NCBI RefSeq assembly: GCF_000004825.1
Contig: NW_008805070.1
Location: forward strand, 1,426,001 to 1,490,000
Reading direction: 5' to 3'
From: Heterostelium album PN500
Taxonomy: Eukaryota > Evosea > Eumycetozoa > Acytosteliales > Acytosteliaceae
DNA: 64,000 nt
A model generated the notes under the pieces. The model worked only from the letters and a program-made list of their open reading frames with translations. It ran no database searches and was not told the DNA's origin. The translations under genes and the position numbers were made by a program. Shown in pieces: positions 2,046 through 60,180 of this stretch (position 1 is the stretch's first letter; the number at the start of each line of letters is the position of its first letter).

Positions 2046-3069
2046 TTACAAAGAAAAATAGATCTTGATCTTCACCGCTGATTTTTTCTTTCCTTTATTA
2101 TTATTTTTTTCATCATCTTCACCATCATCATTCTCTCCATCATCGTCATCATCATCACCATCATCATCTTTGTTGACATTCTTTGTTGTCTTTCTCTTCT
2201 TCTTTGGTGATGCAGAGTCATTTATAAACTTACCTCTAGCAGAGAGAGCGACTAAGTATTTTATAAGATGATACATATTACAAAAGCTCTTTGTAACAAC
2301 CACAGTACCGTCAATGTACTCGTATTTACACAATCGATTGGCTGGCAACTTACAAGGTCTCTTCTTATGGCTGTTAGGCTGATTGATCTTAGCGCAACAG
2401 TTTGGGACTGAAACACTATCAGAGTTTTCTTCACCAGATTCCTCCTCCTCATCATCTTCTTCTGAACTGTTAGCTTCAGATTCCTCTCTTTCTTCGTTGA
2501 CAATATTGTCGAAATCAATGTCAAATATTGATTGGCCACCAGGTTGGTAATCATCACCATTTTGCTCCACAAGATTTACATAATTGTTGAGAATGCCAAG
2601 TAAAAGAGTAGCCTCACCTGCCTTAATTAATAGGATTGTTAATAAAACATAACAAAGGCGGTCATCAATATATACATACTTCGACTACATGAGATTTCCT
2701 GCATTGAATTACTATCATGTTACCAATTCTAATCTTACCAAAAGGAGATTTGGTAATCTTTTGGTTACAAACAGCACAGTTCGTACCTCTGCATTGTTTG
2801 AAATCTAAAAGCTTATTCACTACATAATCAACTGTGTTTGGAAGACTGATAGGGGAATAAGATGATGTTGGTGTTGTTGTTGTTGTTGTTTTTGCTTCTT
2901 TGGATTCAGAAGAAGAGTGTGTACTTTCTCCTTTACAAGTACTACATGTGCATAGTGGAGTAATCCCATTTTTTGAGAAGAAATCGAAATAACATTTAGG
3001 ATTGTGTTGAAATAGAGTTATTTGGTTGAATAAATCTCCACAAAAAGGGCATTGTGACTCAGTACTCAT
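2046..3069 (-). CDS. Unknown acidic protein with N-terminal CxxC..H..C zinc-finger-like motif, two exons
   Basis: Two exons (3069-2680 and 2621-2046) join in phase 0 across a 58 bp intron (donor GTATGT, acceptor TTAATTAAG), giving about 321 residues. The N-terminus has CPFCGDLFNQITLFQHNPKC, a C2HC-type zinc-knuckle arrangement, followed by CTCSTC. A Ser/Thr-rich linker leads to a second Cys pair (CRGTNCAVC) and a conserved-looking core spanning the splice (CRKSHVVE joined to AGEATLLLGILNN). The C-terminal half is very acidic (Asp/Glu runs) with a nuclear-localisation-like PKKKRK and a lysine-rich tail. This composition suggests a nuclear or chromatin-linked protein, but I do not recognise the family. 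Confidence 0.72.
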
Positions 3070-3995
3070 AATTATGATATATAAATAATAATAAAACTAT
3101 TTGAATAAATATTTATGTAATAATAATAGACGCAATGCAATTTTTTGTTGATTTCTTTAAGGAAATAAGGAATTATAACTGATTTCAGTTAGGATAATAT
3201 TTAATTTATTAAATATTTCTATATACAAGGGAATTAAATAACTGACTATTAATAATTTTTTTTTTTTCTAATTTTTTTTGCAAAATTTTTCAAATTTCTC
3301 AGTCCTTCAAAATCATCTTTTATTAGCACAAGCAATAAAACACTAAAAACACTCTTCCTTTTCGAACTATTTGCAATTATAATTGATAAAATGAAGTATT
3401 TAAGAAAAAAACTCACTCTGATAGATGTTCAAGATAAAAAATCTTTGCATTAGACACAAAATAATAATAACTTTATTTAATCTAGTGTTAATCAGGTCCT
3501 TTGTTAAATATCTATTCCGCTAGTTGCTAATCATTCGATTTTCTCATATAAATTTCCCATATAACAATAACCATTTTTTGAACACTAATTTTTGATTGAA
3601 GATCTTTGAGAATTTAATTGAATCTTTCATAAAATTGATAAATATGTCTGTCTCTGTATTCTTTGATCTCTCGGGTTTGGTCCGAACTCTGATGCAGATT
3701 GGAAAACTCATTTTCCCCAACTAAATATAAAGGCAAAATTTTCAAAGTTTTTGTAAAGAATAAAACTTTATATTCTAAATCTACTATAAAAATGTTTTCT
3801 ATTTATCTAATTTTTATTAAAATCCAAGAAGGTTTGATATTTTTTATAATATTAATCTCTGTTTCGACAACTAAGAAAAAGAAATTTATGAAAAACAGCC
3901 ACAACCACTATCATTGAAAAAATTTAACATAATAATTATTTTTATTTAGAAAACAAAATTTATAAATTCATTTCTCTTTAATTCTTTTACCTATC
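3070..3995. other. AT-rich intergenic region containing one candidate small ORF
   Basis: About 0.9 kb lies between the divergent genes ending at 3069 and starting at 3996. Most of it is T/A-rich promoter-like sequence with homopolymer runs (around 3250-3290). The exception is the higher-GC stretch near 3640-3725, listed separately. The longer open frame starting at 3699 is AT-biased and looks random. Confidence 0.5.
3644..3724 (+). CDS. Candidate 26-residue microprotein
   Basis: An ATG with A at -3 opens a 26-codon frame (MSVSVFFDLSGLVRTLMQIG then KLIFPN, TAA). Its base composition is clearly richer in G+C and more codon-like than the surrounding 900 bp of AT-rich spacer. Hydrophobic residues are spaced like an amphipathic or membrane-interacting helix. 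There is no homology I recognise. It could instead be an upstream exon or an unrelated conserved element. Confidence 0.3.
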   Translation: MSVSVFFDLSGLVRTLMQIGKLIFPN

Positions 3996-4591
3996 ATGGA
4001 TAATAATAATAATAATCTTTTAAACAATCCACAAATAATCAATCACTCTGTTGTAACTATAGAACTACCTTGGAACATTTCTGTTAATCAGTATGAAAAG
4101 TTTGTAGATATCAATCATTTACCATCAGATAATTACCAAAAGAGATTTGTAGATATTCCTGTTGCAACACAAATAGACTTTTCTCCTCTTTTCCTACACA
4201 ACCTAAATTGTTGTTTACCAATTTTCCCTCTTCATTATAATCCACTTCACAAGATTGAGAAACTTAATAGAGAGACACATCTAATTGAATACAAAGGTAC
4301 AGATATCCTCTGGGTAAGAGATATAGCACAAAAGCCTGGAAGTCAGAATGCCGAGTTTGTTAGACAGGTTTCAAATTGGAATGATCAGAACAACCTTGGA
4401 GTTGTTTGTAGTGCAAGATCAGAGTTTCGACTATTACAAATAAATGCACATTAGTATGTTATAATTGTAAATTAATTATTCGAATATTACTAACAATACT
4501 ATAATATAGTCGTCCTGATGTAGCATTCAAAACTCATGCTATATATAATCTTGACCCCCCAAATATTCAAAATAATCATCATTCAATATAA
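3996..4591 (+). CDS. Unknown 179-residue protein, two exons
   Basis: Exon 1 (3996-4453) begins MDNNNNNLLNN, a common dictyostelid start. The frame would stop at once in TAG, but GTATGT at 4454 and AATATAG ending at 4509 define a 56 bp intron. The joined second exon (4510-4591) adds YRPDVAFKTHAIYNLDPPN and closes with TAA. The core carries LPWNISVNQYEKFVDINHL and a FVDIPVATQIDF segment; it has no signal peptide or membrane segment. I do not recognise the family. Its 3' end lies 128 bp before the left arm of the inverted repeat. Confidence 0.6.
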
Positions 4592-7593: not shown

Positions 7594-9177
7594 TTAATTT
7601 ATTAATATAATTTGTTTCTCTAGTAATGAAATATCTGTGAATCCACCTTTGATTGCTTCTCCATTTTCACAATATACCATGAAACATTTGGCAGTGTATC
7701 TTCTGAAGTGTAACCGTTTATCCAAGATTAATGATGTTATTGATTCAGGTAGTTTTTTTAGTTTACTGGCATAGTACGTGAGGTTATGACGTAATTCTCT
7801 TAGAGAGGCAGGGAAGGCTTTCTTTTCAATCGGTTTATCATATTCACAAAGATCTAATGTCTCTAAGTACTTTGGGAGTGAACCAACTGATATCTTTGCA
7901 CTATAGGCACGGTTTAAAATGAGTTCTTTAAGATTGGCAGGAAGATCACCTTTCGATAACTTTTGATCAAAGTTAGAACCAAATTCTAATGATTCCAAGT
8001 TATCGGGAAGAATGTATTGTACATCGATAGCATTGTCAAAATTTTGTGGTAATTTCAACTTTCTAAGCGATTGTGGTAGTTTGATTTTGAATTGTGGAGA
8101 CATCTCTATTTTGAGACTCTCCAACATTGTAAGCTGAGAAATGACATCTGGCGATTCAATACTAATATTCATTTCAAGTGTTAGGTGCTGAAGTGACTTT
8201 GGTAATACACCGTTGTTGATCAGTAAGCCAGTTTCATAGCCAGTGACAAAAGGATTAGTCACTGAAATGCTTAAGTTGGTCAGAGATGGAGGAAGATCAC
8301 TTGAAACTAGACGTTTTACAGGGGTGTGTAGCCATCTGATATCCATTGTTGTAATCGATGTCATCATACAAAAGTAATCTAAATGATCTGAGGCTATAAA
8401 CACAGTGTGTAGTCTCGGTGCAAAAGGAGTCAAAGTAGTATCGAAATTGAATGGTTTATGGTCATCTGAGTAACAAATGAAAACCTCTAGACTATGAGGA
8501 AGTCGAATTGGTAGGGTCACATCTAACGTGTGGAATTCGAGATGACGGAGAGATGCTGGGAATTCAGTTGGTTTCTTCTTTGACCTGTTTGAGATTTTCC
8601 TAAACCTAAGAGTATGGATTTTATCTGGAATCTTTGGAAAGTCTGATTCCTGAGATGCATACATAATTGACAACGATCTAGCCATGGCAGACATCTTTAA
8701 CTCAACATTAATGATTGAAATCGATGTAATACTCAAAGAGTCCAACTTCTCAAAGAAACCATTATCCAATATTTCATAGCCATAGACCACTAATTCCTTA
8801 GCGGTGATCGGTACTTTATATATTCCATCTCTTTCTGTTTGTTTTTTTAAATTCAATGTTAAAATGTTAGTTATATTAACAAAACAAATGATTATAAAAT
8901 TGTTATTACCTTTAATCACTATTTTTGGATCTTCATATTTTAATTGATTTTTGAAAGTGTTGAAATTGAAATTATTTAGTTTATTAGAGTTATAATGTAA
9001 AACAAGATATTTGTCTCTTTCAAAGAACCACTTTCTACAAACTAAGCTAAAACATATTTTATCCAAGATGTTTTCAAATCTGTTTGTAATCTCTGCCAAT
9101 AATAAATGAGAGAAACTATAGATTTTAGAATTATTTTTAGAATTATTATTATTCTTATAGTTCTTGTTTGCAATCAT
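7594..9177 (-). CDS. F-box/FNIP-repeat protein, paralogue 1 of a tandem triplet
   Basis: A continuous open frame of 527 codons probably hides a 75 bp stop-free intron (8909-8835, donor GTAATA, acceptor AACAG); removing it gives 502 residues. Its two paralogues have an intron at exactly this place. The N-terminus has an F-box-like motif (SHLLLAEITNRFENILDKIC, then SLVCRKWFFERDKYL), as in SCF-ligase adaptors. The rest is LRR/FNIP solenoid with repeats such as LPDNLESLEFGSNFDQKL and LPKYLETLDLCEYDKPI. Its likely role is substrate recognition for ubiquitination, by analogy with F-box proteins; substrates cannot be guessed. Confidence 0.8.
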   Translation of the reverse strand: MIANKNYKNNNNSKNNSKIYSFSHLLLAEITNRFENILDKICFSLVCRKWFFERDKYLVLHYNSNKLNNFNFNTFKNQLKYEDPKIVIKGNNNFIIICFVNITNILTLNLKKQTERDGIYKVPITAKELVVYGYEILDNGFFEKLDSLSITSISIINVELKMSAMARSLSIMYASQESDFPKIPDKIHTLRFRKISNRSKKKPTEFPASLRHLEFHTLDVTLPIRLPHSLEVFICYSDDHKPFNFDTTLTPFAPRLHTVFIASDHLDYFCMMTSITTMDIRWLHTPVKRLVSSDLPPSLTNLSISVTNPFVTGYETGLLINNGVLPKSLQHLTLEMNISIESPDVISQLTMLESLKIEMSPQFKIKLPQSLRKLKLPQNFDNAIDVQYILPDNLESLEFGSNFDQKLSKGDLPANLKELILNRAYSAKISVGSLPKYLETLDLCEYDKPIEKKAFPASLRELRHNLTYYASKLKKLPESITSLILDKRLHFRRYTAKCFMVYCENGEAIKGGFTDISLLEKQIILIN

Positions 9178-9525
9178 TTTGAATTATTTGTTGAGCAGAT
9201 GTAAAAATGATTTAAAATATTATCAAAATTTGTTATGATTTAGTTTTAACTCTATTGTGTGTGTGTTCCTTTTAAACACTTCTAAATTAAACTTTAATTA
9301 TTTAAATTTAACTATTATAAAATTTAATTCTCATGTGTGTTATTTCATTTTATAGGTTGGGTATATTTTTTGCAAAGCTTTTTTTATATTCTCGCATTAT
9401 CTTTGCAAAAGCTGTGTAAAATTTTTCATTTTTTGGAGGGAGGGATAAAATGAAATTACACATATGTTACATAAATAAAAATTTTATTTTAATTTAATTC
9501 ATAAATATACGAGTGTGTTAATTTT
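9178..9525. other. Intergenic spacer in the F-box/FNIP cluster
   Basis: About 350 bp of AT-rich spacer. It holds two near-identical 12-base direct repeats (TTTGCAAAGCTT and TTTGCAAAAGCT, near 9370 and 9400) and a short purine block GGAGGGAGGG (about 9437). Nothing else is seen. Confidence 0.5.
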
Positions 9526-11094
9526 TTAATGGAATAATATAAGTTGATTCTCGAGTGATGATATATCTGTGAATCCACCTTTCATTGTTTGTCCATAAAG
9601 AGAGTATACAATGAAACAATTGGTAGTGTGTCTTCTTAAATGATAATGTTTATCCAAGATTAATGATGTTATTGAATCAGGAAGTGTTCCTAGTTTACTG
9701 GCATAGTAAGTGAAGCTATGATGAATTGTTCTTAGCGAGGCAGGGAATGCTTTCTTTGCAATCGGTTTATCATATTCACCAAGATCTAATGTCTCTAAAC
9801 CCTTTGGGAATGAACCAACTGATATCTCTGCACTGTAGGCACTGTTTAAAATGAGTTCTTTCAGATTGGCAGGAAGATCACCGTATGATAACTTTTGATT
9901 AAAGTTACAACCAAATTCCAATGATTCCAAGTTATCGGGTAGTATGTATTGCACATCGATAGCATTGTTAAAGTTTTGTGGTAATTTCAACTTTCTAAGC
10001 GATTGTGGTAGTTTGATTTTGAAATGTGGAGACATCTCTATGTTGAGACTCTCCAACGATGTAAGCTGAGTAATGATATCTGGCGATTCTAAACTAATAT
10101 TAGTTCCAAGTGTTAGGTGCTGAAGTGACTTTGGTAATATACCGCTATTGATATGTAAGCCAGTTCCATAGCCAGCGATATATGGATTAGACACTGATAA
10201 GGTTAAGTTGGTCAGAGATGGAGGAAGATCACTTGAAGCTAGATGTCTTTCAGTGGTGTGGGGCCATCTGATTATCATGGTTGTAATCGATGTCATCATA
10301 CTAAAATACTGTAAATGCTTTGATGTTATATTTACAGTGTGTAGTCTCGGTGGTAAAGGAATCAAAGTTGTTTCGATAGCGAATGGTTTACGACCATTCG
10401 ATCTACAAATTAAAACCTCTAGATTTTGAGGAAGTTGAATAGGTAGTGCTACATCCAATGTGTTGAGTTCGAGGTAACGAAGAGATTCTGGGAATGTAGT
10501 TGGTTTGGTCGTCGACTTGTTTGTAAAGCTATCAAGGATAAGAGTGTCGATTCGATCAGGAAGCAAAGGTAAATCGTCATAAACTGGATGAATGAACGAT
10601 ACTGATTTAATGCTAGCAGGTATTTTTTTGGTTGTTGTTGTTGTTGGCATAGACGTAGCAATCATAGATTCCGACTTGCCTAAGAAAATGTTGGCTACTC
10701 TACCGATGATCTCTAATTCTTTGGCTGTTGTCAGTGTCTGTTGTCTAGGTATTTCATCTCTTTCTATTGATTGTTTTAATTCAATGTTAAAATGTTGGTT
10801 CGATATTAATTTTTATTGCTTTATACTAATAATACCTTTAATAACTATTGACGTTGATTCTTGAAATTTTAATTGATTTCTGAAAGAGTTGAAATTGAAA
10901 TTGGAATTATTTAGTTTATTAGAGTTATAATGTAAAGTAAGATATTTGTGTCTTTCATAGAACCACTTTCTACAAACTAAGCTAAAGCATATTCTATCCA
11001 AGTTGCTGGCAAGACTATTTGTAAGCTCTGCTAATAATAAATGTGACAAGTTATAGATTATAGTTTTGTTATTATTGTTATTGTTTGTGATCAT
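9526..11094 (-). CDS. F-box/FNIP-repeat protein, paralogue 2 of a tandem triplet
   Basis: Exon 1 (11094-10836) carries the F-box-like segment (SHLLLAELTNSLASNLDRIC). A 72 bp intron (10835-10764; GTATTA...CAATAG) leads to exon 2 (10763-9526). The join is phase 1 and restores IVIK-ERDEIP, matching paralogue 1. The product is about 498 residues. The FNIP/LRR half is very close to the neighbouring copies (for example QSLRKLKLPQNFNNAIDVQY). The tandem arrangement and near identity with paralogue 3 indicate recent local duplication. It also has a short Thr/Lys-rich insert (SMPTTTTTKK) absent from paralogue 1. Confidence 0.8.
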
Positions 11095-11198
11095 CTATTT
11101 TTTTTTTATAAGATTTTTAAATGTTAAAAAGTACAAATATTTTTATCATCCAGATTGGTCAAAAAATTTCTCTTTTTTTAACCACAAAAAATATAAAT

Positions 11199-12551
11199 TT
11201 AATTTATTAATATAAGTTGATTCTCGAGTGATGATATATCTGTGAATCCACCTTTCATTGTTTGTCCATAAAGATAGTATACAATGAAACAATTGGTAGT
11301 GTGTCTTCTTAAATGATAATGTTTATCCAAGATTAATGATGTTATTGAATCAGGAAGTGTTCCTAGTTTACTGGCATAGTAAGTGAAACTATGATGAATT
11401 GTTCTTAGCGAGGCAGGGAATGCTTTCTTTGCAATCGGGTTAACATATTCACCAAGATCTAATGTCTCTAAACCCTTTGGGAATGAACCAACTGTTATCT
11501 CTGCACTGTACGAACTGTTTAAAATGAGTTCTTTCAGATTGGCAGGAAGATCACCGTATGATAACTTTTGATTAAAGTTACAACCAAATTCCAATGATTC
11601 CAAGTTATCAGGTAGTATGTATTGCACATCGATAGCATTGTTAAAGTTTTGTGGTAATTTCAACTTTCTAAGTGATTGTGGTAGTTTGATTTTGAAATGT
11701 GGAGACATCTCTATGTTGAGACTCTCCAACGATGTAAGCTGAGTAATAATATCTTGTGATTCTAAACTAATATTCATTCCAAGTATTAGGTGTTTAAGTG
11801 ACTTTGGTAATACACCTCTGTTGATCAGTAAGCCAGTTCCATAGCGAGCGATATATGGATTAGACACCGTTAAGGTTAAGTTGATCAAAGATGGAGGAAG
11901 ATCACTTGAAGCTAGATGTCTATCAGAGTTGTGTAGCCATCTGATTTTCATGGTTGTAATCGATGTCATCATACTAAAGCCCTCTAATTGCTTTGAGGTT
12001 ATATGTACAGTGTGTAGTCTCGGTGGTAAAGGAATCAAAGTTGTTTCGATAGCAAATGATTTTTGATCATTCGATCTACAAATGAAAACCTCTAGATTAT
12101 GAGGCAGTTGAATAGGTAGCACTACATCAAACGAGTTGAATTCGATGTGACGAACATATTTTGGGAAAGTAGATGGTTTAGTTGTCGACCTGTTTGAAAC
12201 GTATCCAAGTTTCAGAGTTTCGATCTCTAATTCCTTGTCTGTTTATATTGTCAATTGTATAATTAGTTCTTCTTTTTCTTTTGTTTTTAATTCACTAACA
12301 TTGCTATTAAATTTCTATTTACTTTTAATAACATCTTGAAATTTTAATTGATTTCCGAAGGAGTTGAAATTGAAATTATTTAGTTTATTAGAGTTATAAT
12401 GTAAAACAAGATATTTGTCTCTTTCATAGAACCACTTTCTACAAACTAAACTAAAGCATATTTTATCCAAGTTGCTCACAAGATTATTTGTAATCTCTGC
12501 TAATAATAAATGTGAAAACCTAAATATTATAGTATTATTATTTGTGATCAT
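11199..12551 (-). CDS. F-box/FNIP-repeat protein, paralogue 3, shortened
   Basis: Exon 1 (12551-12323) encodes the F-box-like region (SHLLLAEITNNLVSNLDKIC). An 84 bp intron (12322-12239) joins in phase 1 to exon 2 (12238-11199), giving about 422 residues. The reading VIKNKELEIETLKLGYVSNR continues without a stop into the FNIP/LRR part, so the gene looks intact. Compared with paralogue 2 it lacks roughly 50 codons just after the splice, while the C-terminal 300 residues are almost identical. The missing block probably reflects a deletion or a different acceptor choice. Confidence 0.75.
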
Positions 12552-43948: not shown

Positions 43949-46813
43949 TTAATTACTACCTTTTATTTTATAGTGTAGATTTTCTAATTTTTGATTGAAT
44001 CTCGTTATTTTTTGTTTAATTAATTCAAATGTTTCCGAAAACAAATTATCGTCTAACCATTCAATTTCGGCCAATATGTCAAAGAGTTTATCACTTTGTT
44101 GATTAGGATTGACCAATTCTAATAAATAATTTAAATGTTCTCTAAGATTCTTTCCAATTTTGACTCTCTCAAAGAATTGTGAAGCAACATTGATATAACC
44201 ATTATTTAAATGCTCTTTGTATTCAAGAATATCAAGAGATGCTGAAATTCGACTTCCAAGATCAATTGCAAAGATTGTGAAACTTCCATTAATATTGATA
44301 TCGAATATTACTTGGATTTTAGAAATTCCTTTTGGAGCTGGATATATTCCTCCCAAATACAACGTTCCCAAATGATTGTTGGAATCTGAATGTAATTCTG
44401 GATCTCCTTCATAGATTGGGATTGAAATAACACTTTCATAATCTGAAGTTATGGTTATTATTTCACTTCTCTGAATAGGAAGTTTGAGATCTTTTGGAAT
44501 AACTTGAATAAAATCTCCTCGTTCTGTTCCAATACCAAGTGAAAATGGGATGTAATCTATTTTATCTGATAATTGAATCTCTTCATTATATAAATAAATA
44601 TATGGGAAACGATGATTGTATTCATCAATAATTTCAATCTGTGGAAATTGAACGAAATCTACATTTGTTGGTTGTCGATATTTATTGATCTTAACTTTTG
44701 TATCCATTTCATCAATACTGGTTACCAATGATTGATTTACAAAGTTGAAAGTTGGTTGGTGTAAAATTTTTACAGACATTATATCTACTGAATTATTTCG
44801 AGTCATTTCAAAATCGATTTTAGAGTAAATGGAAGAGATAATTGGGTCAAGAATTGAATGAATTTCATTAATTGAGCTTTGGAATAATGTTACATTATCT
44901 GGCATTGATGATATGATTTTGAAAATATTTTCTTTCACCTCTGAAAAATAATTATCTTGATTGATTTCCAACATACACTTGACACTATTGATATAGTCCT
45001 TTAGTGAATTGAAAAGTTTGATTCTCTCGACTTGTTCATCTTCAAATTCATAATGATCTTGAAAATCAAATTGGCCATAGTCATTCTCGATTGGAATAAC
45101 TGTCGAGTTGGTAATTCCATTTGAAAGATCTGTAATTTTAACTTCCAAATCCAAGTTGGCGCATAATTCAAATACTACTTGAATTGGAACACCTCGTGGA
45201 GCAGGTGAAATACCAGACAATTCTATTGTTCCAATTTCAGTATTGTTTTGTGAAAGTTGACTATCTCCTTGTAATATTTTTATCTCTATCTTTTCTTGAT
45301 AATCTACAGTAGTTGAGAATTGTTTTATTCTCCGACTCGGAATAAAAGAATATTTACCAATGACAGTCGACATCAAACCACCTTTGATTTCAACACCAAT
45401 TGGCTGTTTAGGAAATTCATAATAAAGTTCGCAAAATGGATAATCATTAAAACCAGATGTCAAAATAGAAGTTAATAGAGAAGCTCCAATAGAAATGACG
45501 CTACTTGGTCTTGGATGATTCAATGATTCTCTACCATTGAAATATTCTTTTACAATTGATCTTATCTTTGGCATCGTAGTCGAACCACCTGTCATCAAAA
45601 CTGAATGAATCTCTTGTGTTTTCAAAAAAGAATCATTCATCAACTTGGATATTAATTGAATGAACTTTGGGTAGAGATGATTGTTTAGATCTTCGAATTT
45701 CGAACGACTCAGTGTTTCATTGAGATTGAATCCACCAAAGAAATCATTGAATTGAATGATTGTTGAATTTGAGAATGAAAGTTCGATTTTTGCTTTTTCC
45801 GATGCAGATTTCAACTTTTCCATTGTCAACATATCAAAACTCGCATCAAGACCACTTTTTGATTTGAAAACATCCAAAAGATATTTAACAATACTTTCAG
45901 TGAAATCATCTCCTCCAATTCGAATAGATTCAGCTTCAAGTATTTCAATAGGATACTCTTTGAAGTTCTCATAATATGTTCTATCTACACTAACTAAAGA
46001 AGCTTCAAAAGAATCTCCACCCATTTTTAAAACCAAATGATATCTATCGATCGAAGAATCGAATTCTAGACGTCTATTAAACTCTAATTCTATAGCTTTA
46101 GTTTCATCGAATATTCTAAACACACTTTCGAATCCTGCTTTTGTTGCTGCATCTTTAAGGGCTTCTCGTTGAAAACTATCGAAATAAGATGGACATATAA
46201 TTATTGTTTTTGTAACTGGTACACCTAAATATGTTTCAGAATTTCTCTTCAGCTTATTGAAAATAAATGAAAGAATTTCTTCTGGTGAATAAAGTTTCTC
46301 TGTACCATTTACTGTAACTGAAATTTTTGGATTGTCCAAATTATCTGATATTATCTTGAATGGTAACTTATCAATATCTTCAATCTTTGAAAATCTATAA
46401 AAATAAATAAAATTAATAATAAATTTAAATTAAATTGTATATATATCATACTTTTTACCAATCAAATGTTTTAAATTAAATATTGTATTGTTTCCATTGG
46501 AAAATACAAGATTCTTTGCTTCTTCACCAACAAGAATTGTATTATTAATAAAACTAACATAGGATGGTAATGATAGATTTCCATCAATATCGGGTATGAT
46601 TATTGATTGCTTGTGTGTTGTTAAATATGAAATTCCACAATTTGAATTGCCAAAATCTATTGCTACTATAAGTGGATGATCAATAGAATGTTTATTAATT
46701 TGATAAAGATTGTCAATTTCTAGTCTATCTGATCCAAAATATTCAATCGAATTTGACAAACTCAAATAAAAAAATAAAAAAAATAAAATATTAAATAAAA
46801 AGGAATTATTCAT
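43949..46813 (-). CDS. Divergent secretory-pathway Hsp70 with two substrate-binding modules, two exons
   Basis: Exon 1 (46813-46452) encodes a signal peptide (MNNSFLFNILFFLFFYLSLS) and the first ATPase lobe. A 57 bp intron (46451-46395) joins in phase 2, rebuilding LKHLIGKKFSKIEDI, for 935 residues. The ATPase signatures are recognisable but altered: AIDFGNSNCGISYL replaces the usual DLGTT, IFDETKAIELEF replaces the EPTAAA region, and VLMTGGSTTMPKIRSIV is well kept. One SBD-beta follows (IPSRRIKQFSTTVDYQEK, IELSGISPAPRGVPIQVVF) with a helical lid. A second SBD-beta begins at PFSLGIGTERGDFIQVIPKD and continues LGGIYPAPKGISKIQVIFDI, with its own lid. The C-terminus lacks an HDEL-type signal. 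An upstream in-frame ATG at 46888 is possible but would bury the signal peptide. Confidence 0.85.
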
Positions 46814-46967
46814 TTTTGAGAAATTTTTGGTGAAAATAAAAAGAAATATGAAAAGATGATGACGCAGATTAAAACGATGACAAATCAAAAAATACTCTTA
46901 TTGTCCCAATTTAAACGTTACTCCTCTATTTATTTTCAAGCCAAAAAAAAAATGGGGAACCTAAGTT

Positions 46968-48688
46968 ATGAAAAAAAAGATGACAATGATCAGGTTTAAT
47001 AATAGCAATAATAATATGAATCACAATATTCAAAACAATGTGTTTATTAATTTACCACATATTTTGTTATCAAAAATAATAGATGTATTAGAAGAAAACA
47101 TTGATCGAATATGTCTAACTCTTACTTGTAAGAGATTGTTTAATGAGAAAGATAAATACTTTAGATTAAATAGTGACGATATACCTGATCAACCGATTCA
47201 CAATGATCGTTTACTTAGTAATTTCAAATTAAATACATATGTCAACGATATGAGGCTGGCATTACAACAGCCAAGAGTAAATTGTACTCTAATGATAACA
47301 TTTGGATCACCATCAATCCCACCTTCTATAGAAAAGGAATATCATTATCTTCAAGACTACGGTAATTACCACATTACTCATTTAATAGAATAATCTTTAG
47401 TAGTAAAACTAATAAATTATATAATATTATAGAAGATGGCAATAAAAAGCATTTAGACAATATTGATATAGTAACTTCTATCTGTAGAATAACATTTCAT
47501 GGTAAAAACAAGAGAGCATTAACTAATGAATTTCTAAATGCGCTGGCCAACTCCAATGTCAATACACTTCACATTGGCGATGTACTCAAATTTGAATTCA
47601 ATAGACTTCCCGCCAACATAAAACATATAAAAAGTAACAAATGTTTTATAGTGAATCATTTGCCCGTTGGACTGATCAATCTATCGATTGAATCGTTGGA
47701 TCATCCACTAGTTACTTCTTTACTACCGTCTACTCTGAGATCGTTAGCCTTAGAGAATACTACACAACCATCTCTATGTAAGATCGATCTCAAAGGATTG
47801 CCACCCACACTCGAAGAACTCCGACTTGGTCAGAATATCGAGGCCAATACCGCTCCACTTCCATCGACATTACAATCTCTTTCTTTACAATGTAAGATAT
47901 GGAGAGATTTAAAGTCATCAAACAACCTATCGAATATATCGATCAAGAAGCTAGAGTTACACGTTAATGATACAAATCAGTCGGATTGGTTCATTCCAGA
48001 GTCGGTTACCGACCTGACAATCAACCTATCAGTACCAATAACTATAACAAAGTCAATCTTTCCAAGTGGTATCAAAAAACTAAAGTTCTATTCCTATGAT
48101 GATAGATTCAAGTGTGAGCCAGATGTTTTCTCCACCTTACACCAACTTGAAGAACTTGACCTACTAAATGTCAGTTGGAGTGAAGGTCTAACGATTGGTC
48201 AGCTTCCAAAGAGTATCAAAAGAATTCTACCACCTAGAGACTTAAAATGTGAGCTATCTACATTTTGCGAAATACCAGATTTTTCTGTAGAGACTCTCTT
48301 TATTAGTATCCGAGATATAGAGGGCGGCAAATCGCCAAGAGTACCAAAAGGAGTTAAAGAGTTAATAATCGATAGTTATATTCAGCTAAAGCCAGGAATA
48401 GTACCAGATGGTGTCGAGGAGCTTGTTTTAACTAATCATCAAAAGATTGAGAGTCCGCTGGAATCGATCCCTGCCTCGGTAAGAAAAATGAGAGTCACAT
48501 CTAAATTTTTCAAAGGTAATCCAGTCGGCACACTACCTGCAACGATAAACACAATAGATAGTATCTCTTCTCCAACAACCCCGACTATTACAATAAGACG
48601 ACACAGCAATCATCATTTTATTTTCTATTTTCACTATAAGATATATATCTTATGTGGTATTGCTTTCCATACTTCATTAAATCTTTAA
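46968..48688 (+). CDS. F-box/FNIP-repeat protein, two exons
   Basis: Exon 1 (46968-47361) has an Asn-rich start and a clear F-box-like motif (NLPHILLSKIIDVLEENIDR, ICLTLTCKRLFNEKDKYF). A 71 bp intron (47362-47432) joins in phase 1 to exon 2 (47433-48688), giving 549 residues with LQDYEDGNKKHLDNID across the junction. The solenoid part has degenerate FNIP/LRR units (LPPTLEELRLGQNIEAN, LPKSIKRILPPRDLKCEL, VPKGVKELIIDS). It is only distantly related to the triplet at 7.6-12.6 kb and lies on the opposite strand. Its C-terminal 30 codons overlap a frame on the reverse strand. It is probably an SCF adaptor. Confidence 0.75.

Positions 48689-57700: not shown

Positions 57701-60180
<2,480 letters not shown>

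Follow-up and report, generated by a model that had tools for sequence, protein, structure and literature searches.

Tandem substrate-binding domains behind a degenerate ATPase domain in a BiP-related protein of Heterostelium album PN500

The minus-strand gene at positions 43949..46813 of a 64,000-nucleotide stretch of the Heterostelium album PN500 genome (G000:C9:1426001-1490000, hereafter the window) encodes an Hsp70-like protein in which a degenerate nucleotide-binding domain (NBD) is followed by two substrate-binding domains (SBDs) arranged in tandem. We regard this architecture as nearly certain; function and location are inferred. As a tentative reading, to which we give somewhat less than an even chance, we propose that the protein is a BiP-derived holdase that acts on proteins of the secretory pathway or on secreted ones through two sites and independently of ATP.

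The start codon was located at 46813 and the stop codon at 43951-43949, which makes the limits given in the original prediction exact, provided that one intron is removed. This intron (46395..46451, 57 bases, GT-AG) is required because the reading frame breaks there, and an intron-like sequence was found at the same place in the related locus L021, described below. Splicing of the exons 46813-46452 (362 bases) and 46394-43949 yields an open frame of 935 codons plus the stop. The second exon comprises 814 residues, contains no stop and covers most of the NBD, the inter-module connector and both SBD modules. All parts of the protein named below are encoded on the minus strand.

The beta parts of the SBDs (SBD-beta) were searched for with a profile built from four Hsp70s of the host genome (32.9 Mb, 39 contigs), which recognized two domains, i.e., residues 453-561 (45074..45400; 78.4 bits, E 2.1e-26), carrying the PAPRG motif, and residues 734-850 (44207..44557; 63.9 bits, E 6.3e-22), carrying PAPKG. 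With lengths of 109 and 117 residues, both are compact and lack a long insertion. The Pfam HSP70 model (PF00012; curated cut-off 20.6) matched exon 2 with 352.1 bits in two stretches, and the second half alone with 69.4 bits (E 2.5e-19). In phmmer searches against PDB sequences, the best match of exon 2 was BiP (E 4.3e-76), with HSPA1A next (4.3e-75), and the second half alone found the SBDs of BiP/Hsp70 proteins, again with BiP as the best match (E 3.3e-18).

Predicted structures point in the same direction. AlphaFold2 modelled eight strands in SBD1, with blocks of predicted local distance difference test scores (pLDDT) of 75-91 over P0001 331-430, and eight strands in SBD2 when the latter was given its own alignment. 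In the tandem model, in the alignment of which SBD2 is covered by no DnaK row, seven strands of at least 3 residues lie within the domain and one just before it (block pLDDT 47-70). The beta part of SBD2 superposes strongly on solved SBDs, and the Foldseek matches in PDB agree with an NBD followed by an SBD-beta fold, as do the sequence matches and the model. The two SBD-beta modules claimed in the original prediction are therefore seen both as two profile domains and as two modelled beta-sandwiches, not as a single one. The claim of two helical lids fared unevenly. The first lid (residues about 562-655, 44792..45073) is well modelled, with three helices at P0001 448-477, 484-495 and 501-533 (blocks 80-88 after the first), whereas the second, within residues 851-935 (43952..44206), is only a reduced, low-confidence helical bundle (blocks 39-74 in the tandem model and 35-77 for SBD2 alone), and both are marginal by sequence alone (E 0.003 and 0.046, respectively, in a six-fragment test). 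Between the modules lies a connector (residues about 656-733, 44558..44791) predicted to be largely disordered (pLDDT < 50 at P0001 535-612). Two fragments of it gave no match to the DnaK profile, even when every filter was disabled and E values as high as 1000 were admitted, and a remnant of an additional NBD between the two modules was rejected on these grounds.

As a control, 160 DnaK frames (80 loci on genome contigs and 80 on viral contigs) were inspected, and each of the 160 contained exactly one SBD-beta, as opposed to the two of the window protein; similarly, the 50 SBD-beta matches across 38 whole genomes never included two on one contig. These counts test rarity only weakly, because the control loci were the best 80 of each scan and mostly canonical DnaKs, and the 38 genomes were picked from one set of 80 loci. 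A search of viral contigs with residues 653-935, in a mode that finds close relatives only, returned 4 pattern matches and no relative.

The NBD (residues about 48-440, 45437..46672, with the intron inside it) is recognizable from the Pfam HSP70 and PDB BiP matches, from its position in the NBD tree and from its alignment with 55 DnaK rows, which was used as the reference for residue comparison. At positions where 55/55 rows agree, the protein has K244 for D, D248 for G, S249 for T and E251 for D, and furthermore D217 for N, T219 for P, K220 for T and T394 for R; E218 and K323, identical in 55/55 rows, are kept. K244 occupies what we take to be the catalytic aspartate position of the second phosphate motif. 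In the interdomain linker (residues 441-453, 45398..45436), residues 445-448 read YYEF, while the DnaK rows all have LLDV except one with I at 446; this change presumably takes away the segment that couples the NBD and the SBD. Because lysine replaces aspartate at the phosphate-2 site and the LLDV linker is gone, ATP hydrolysis and allostery are probably lost, and we consider the loss of a working ATPase cycle highly likely. The ATPase domain, which had been called degenerate, indeed proved so, as residues occurring here, including K244, were found in 0/55 DnaK rows and the LLDV linker is lost.

A tree of 18 NBDs joined the window protein to the BiP of the host genome (L024) and the BiP-like L018, and separated the three, with support 98 and a long branch, from the rest, i.e., cytosolic, mitochondrial, Hsp110-like, GRP170-like and DnaK sequences. 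Identity to host BiP (38%) was the highest among the sequences compared, and the GRP170-like L019 paired with the Hsp110-like L022 (support 79) apart from the window NBD (L019, L020, L022 and L027 were assigned names by eye, if any). Judging from these comparisons, the protein is a diverged member of the endoplasmic reticulum (ER) Hsp70 (BiP) family. The two SBDs are only 33% identical to each other, and recent copying of SBD1 into SBD2 was thereby ruled out. SBD1 is nearer to BiP (40%), and SBD2 is about equally near to other Hsp70s (30-34%; L020 26%). Both modules group with support 89, on very long branches beside the divergent L020 and L018, for which reason SBD2 may stem from either of two putative sources, an internal duplication or a fusion with some other BiP-like copy.

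Two further loci on the BiP side of the family look broken. L021 1845-2483 (G000:C8, about 309344-309982) is a decayed, internally deleted relative with an in-frame stop, in which the deletion brings the NBD start directly up to the SBD2 end, with order and strand as in the window gene, and a weak DNA match continues to the lid end. Its residues agree with those of the window gene at 46/61 positions in the NBD, 24/45 in SBD2 and 29/42 in exon 1. Since L021 holds pieces of both the NBD and SBD2, their pairing is older than the duplication that gave L021. The second locus, L018 (G000:C10:1294000-1300500), is a cluster of BiP-like pieces comprising a partial copy (about 1833-2133), a degenerate NBD-SBD (about 2686-4377) in which the frame changes from one domain to the other and, about 130 bases behind this NBD-SBD, an orphan SBD end piece (4476-4580). 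This layout illustrates a route by which a second SBD could end up behind a first. Elsewhere in the host genome, L027 (G000:C31:79000-84500, locus 1266-2408) contains a 381-residue frame with a match to the Hsp70 NBD only (model positions 13-378), which is possibly an NBD-only Hsp70-like gene. A 48-base copy of the SBD1 coding DNA, 94% identical, was noticed in L031 at about 1470-1560 (G000:C9 near 783735-783782), where it sits in apparently non-coding DNA flanked by a repeated stretch aatttcagttataaa (by eye) and has the look of a small insertion of templated DNA bordered by a target-site-like duplication.

Comparison with L021 also allowed selection to be estimated. The ratio of non-synonymous to synonymous substitutions (dN/dS) was 0.40 over 148 codons, with one stop codon set aside; by piece, it was 0.36 for the NBD, 0.22 for exon 1 and 0.68 for SBD2 (45 codons), which is looser than in the NBD pieces. 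Had the frame drifted freely since the L021 split (the divergence assigned to it being 0.235 per site, one half of dS), its 935 codons should by now include about 36 stops, about 8.5 of them in SBD2, and 0 are present in either. The absence of the expected stops, taken together with the dN/dS values, supports selection on the whole frame, acting less strictly on SBD2.

As regards cellular location, hydrophobicity along the protein is highest at the N-terminus (the top windows start at residues 4-6, the top 15-residue window at residue 5), and residues 1-22 (46748..46813) form a probable signal peptide with a putative cleavage site; of the signal peptide claimed in the original prediction, it is thus the hydrophobic N-terminus that stands, judged from hydropathy only. 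The protein ends in KGSN, whereas the BiP (L024) and the GRP170-like protein (L019) of the host genome end in HDEL, in agreement with the missing retention signal proposed earlier. This absence is, however, weak evidence for secretion, because a Dictyostelium PDI without HDEL is held by another C-terminal retention sequence, according to the relevant part of PMC6025073. In a table of the same source, the one Hsp70-family ER chaperone named for D. discoideum is Grp78 (PMC6025073).

Based on these data, the holdase proposal can be formulated as follows. A second SBD would have been added behind the first lid of a BiP-family protein, with a flexible stretch of about 78 residues between the modules, and the product would enter the ER through its hydrophobic N-terminus. 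If its NBD, with the D-to-K change at the phosphate-2 site and without the linker, no longer drove an ATP cycle, the SBDs would be neither opened nor closed by ATP. Two hydrophobic clefts might then bind exposed stretches of a single unfolded client, or a pair of clients together, so that avidity would replace ATP-driven trapping, and the clients would be passed to ordinary BiP or the protein would leave together with them. The positions that we take, following DnaK numbering, to line the pocket are hydrophobic in SBD1 (V455, F480, I490, I492 and I525) as well as in SBD2 (I742, I767, I777, I779 and I814), and both clefts look usable but altered. That Hsp70-like proteins can be holdases is known from Hsp110, and hydrolysis is dispensable for Sse1, although Sse1 has to bind ATP, and the question whether holdase work depends on nucleotide cycling is described as controversial in the sections of PMC4753570 devoted to these proteins. 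A holdase function as such appears to us possible, if not quite as probable as its absence. It is rather unlikely, in turn, that the protein represents a lineage-specific class of bivalent chaperones of social amoebae, i.e., ATP-uncoupled avidity Hsp70s with two flexibly tethered SBDs behind a pseudo-ATPase NBD, acting in secreted or luminal, extracellular or endolysosomal settings.

Several observations weigh against the holdase proposal. The first of the bridging (arch) positions, presumed likewise from DnaK numbering, is K458 in SBD1 and E745 in SBD2, against L or M in 50/55 DnaK rows (with K and E in a single row each), and the second is T483 and T770, against A in 54/55 rows. With the arch residues changed in both modules, peptides may be bound weakly or in a different way. 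Lid 2 is a reduced one, modelled with low confidence, and SBD2 shows the loosest constraint noted above. The 14 N-glycosylation sequons, compared with 9.6 expected, do not amount to an enrichment (this number was reached by 158/2000 shuffles), and no heat-shock or ER-stress elements, as defined by the consensus sequences that we assumed, were found in the 300 bases upstream; neither result supports a stress or secretory role.

Other readings of the same data have to be considered. The protein might be a co-factor of BiP, the diverged NBD-SBD1 part of which would bind BiP in the ER and, much like GRP170, serve it as a nucleotide-exchange factor or as a partner in client transfer, with SBD2 as an extra client arm. 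Such a role would be suited by client holding through two domains, and it has a parallel in Hsp110/GRP170, which are Hsp70-shaped exchange factors; Hsp110s may also act as holdases and Sse1 does not need hydrolysis (PMC4753570, the part concerning Sse1). On the other hand, the host genome already has a GRP170-like gene with an HDEL end (L019, named by eye), the window NBD falls outside the GRP170/Hsp110 group, and ATP binding, which Sse1 requires according to the same part of PMC4753570, is opposed in its normal form by the phosphate-site changes found here; we consider this reading unlikely. The looks of L021, with its internal deletion and in-frame stop, and of L018, with its pieces, could point instead to a relic, in which a BiP-like copy was joined to an SBD next to it while a lineage-specific BiP-like set was decaying, and now stays open by chance or is barely used. 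The high divergence and the SBD2 dN/dS of 0.68 would fit, but 935 codons are open where drift would have left about 36 stops, the overall dN/dS is 0.40 even though one of the two copies compared is dead, and the beta part of SBD2 keeps a complete fold in prediction; we consider a relic distinctly unlikely.

It has also been taken into account that the protein may be secreted or exposed at the surface, where its SBDs would grip a few defined ligands (of the extracellular matrix, in bacterial capture or in development) and not unfolded chains. The hydrophobic N-terminus, the absent HDEL and the arch residues changed in both modules would all be in line with this, but the ligands are only hypothetical and the absent HDEL is compatible with ER retention in this group (PMC6025073, the part on retention sequences), so that this reading seems improbable to us. 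An error in the gene model, joining two separate genes or transcripts, could be suspected from the long connector predicted to be disordered; it is, however, largely refuted and extremely improbable, as the connector, the two SBDs and the larger part of the NBD lie in a single open exon of 814 codons, no NBD remnant separates the SBDs, and the NBD start and SBD2 end of L021 follow the same order on the same strand. Our preferred reading remains the two-site holdase, at the tentative level given at the outset.

Compared with known systems, the window protein resembles BiP/GRP78/Kar2 (HSPA5 group) in its hydrophobic N-terminal leader, in the order of NBD, SBD-beta and lid, in the grouping of its NBD with host BiP and in its best PDB sequence matches, which are BiP with other Hsp70s close behind; it differs in having two SBDs, a changed linker and phosphate-site residues, no HDEL and an NBD only 38% identical to host BiP. 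It shares with GRP170/HYOU1/Lhs1 and Hsp110 an Hsp70-like shape and a size larger than that of Hsp70, but it adds a whole second SBD, with each SBD-beta compact, and its NBD lies on the BiP side and is not grouped with them. HSPA13/STCH is a secretory Hsp70-like protein of atypical architecture, not known to have an SBD, in contrast to the window protein, which has two. HSPA13 is listed as an ER protein in the relevant portion of PMC13149161. As for function, the nearest precedent is that of Hsp110 together with GRP170, Hsp110 being holdase-capable and hydrolysis being dispensable for Sse1 (PMC4753570, the same part). Among the matches listed in a search of the open literature, no Hsp70 with two SBDs was found, and an unremarked database entry may well exist; the "two SBDs" of one Hsp70 paper are two structures of one SBD in the portion concerned (PMC6017645).

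In the remainder of the window, the ATG of a plus-strand frame at 46968 lies only 154 bases (46814-46967) away from where the Hsp70-like gene starts, and given this gap the two may share a divergent promoter. Several frames with short repeated motifs, which we assume to resemble FNIP/LRR-type repeats of dictyostelids, are present at 140-1945, 7594-12122 and 47651-48688, and the three adjoining frames at 7594-12122 resemble, by eye, close copies of one another. A long frame at 57844-60180, Cdc48/p97-like by eye, lies where the G+C content rises to 49%, compared with about 30% across most of the window.

The action of Hsp70 is taught as that of a single ATPase domain coupled to a single substrate-binding domain. 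A protein that occurs in nature with two SBDs, a changed ATPase domain and a changed linker would offer a test of whether the SBDs of Hsp70 can chaperone by avidity alone, and also of how an Hsp70 can evolve after allostery has been lost, with the broken BiP-like copies of the host genome as plausible raw material for the two-SBD change.
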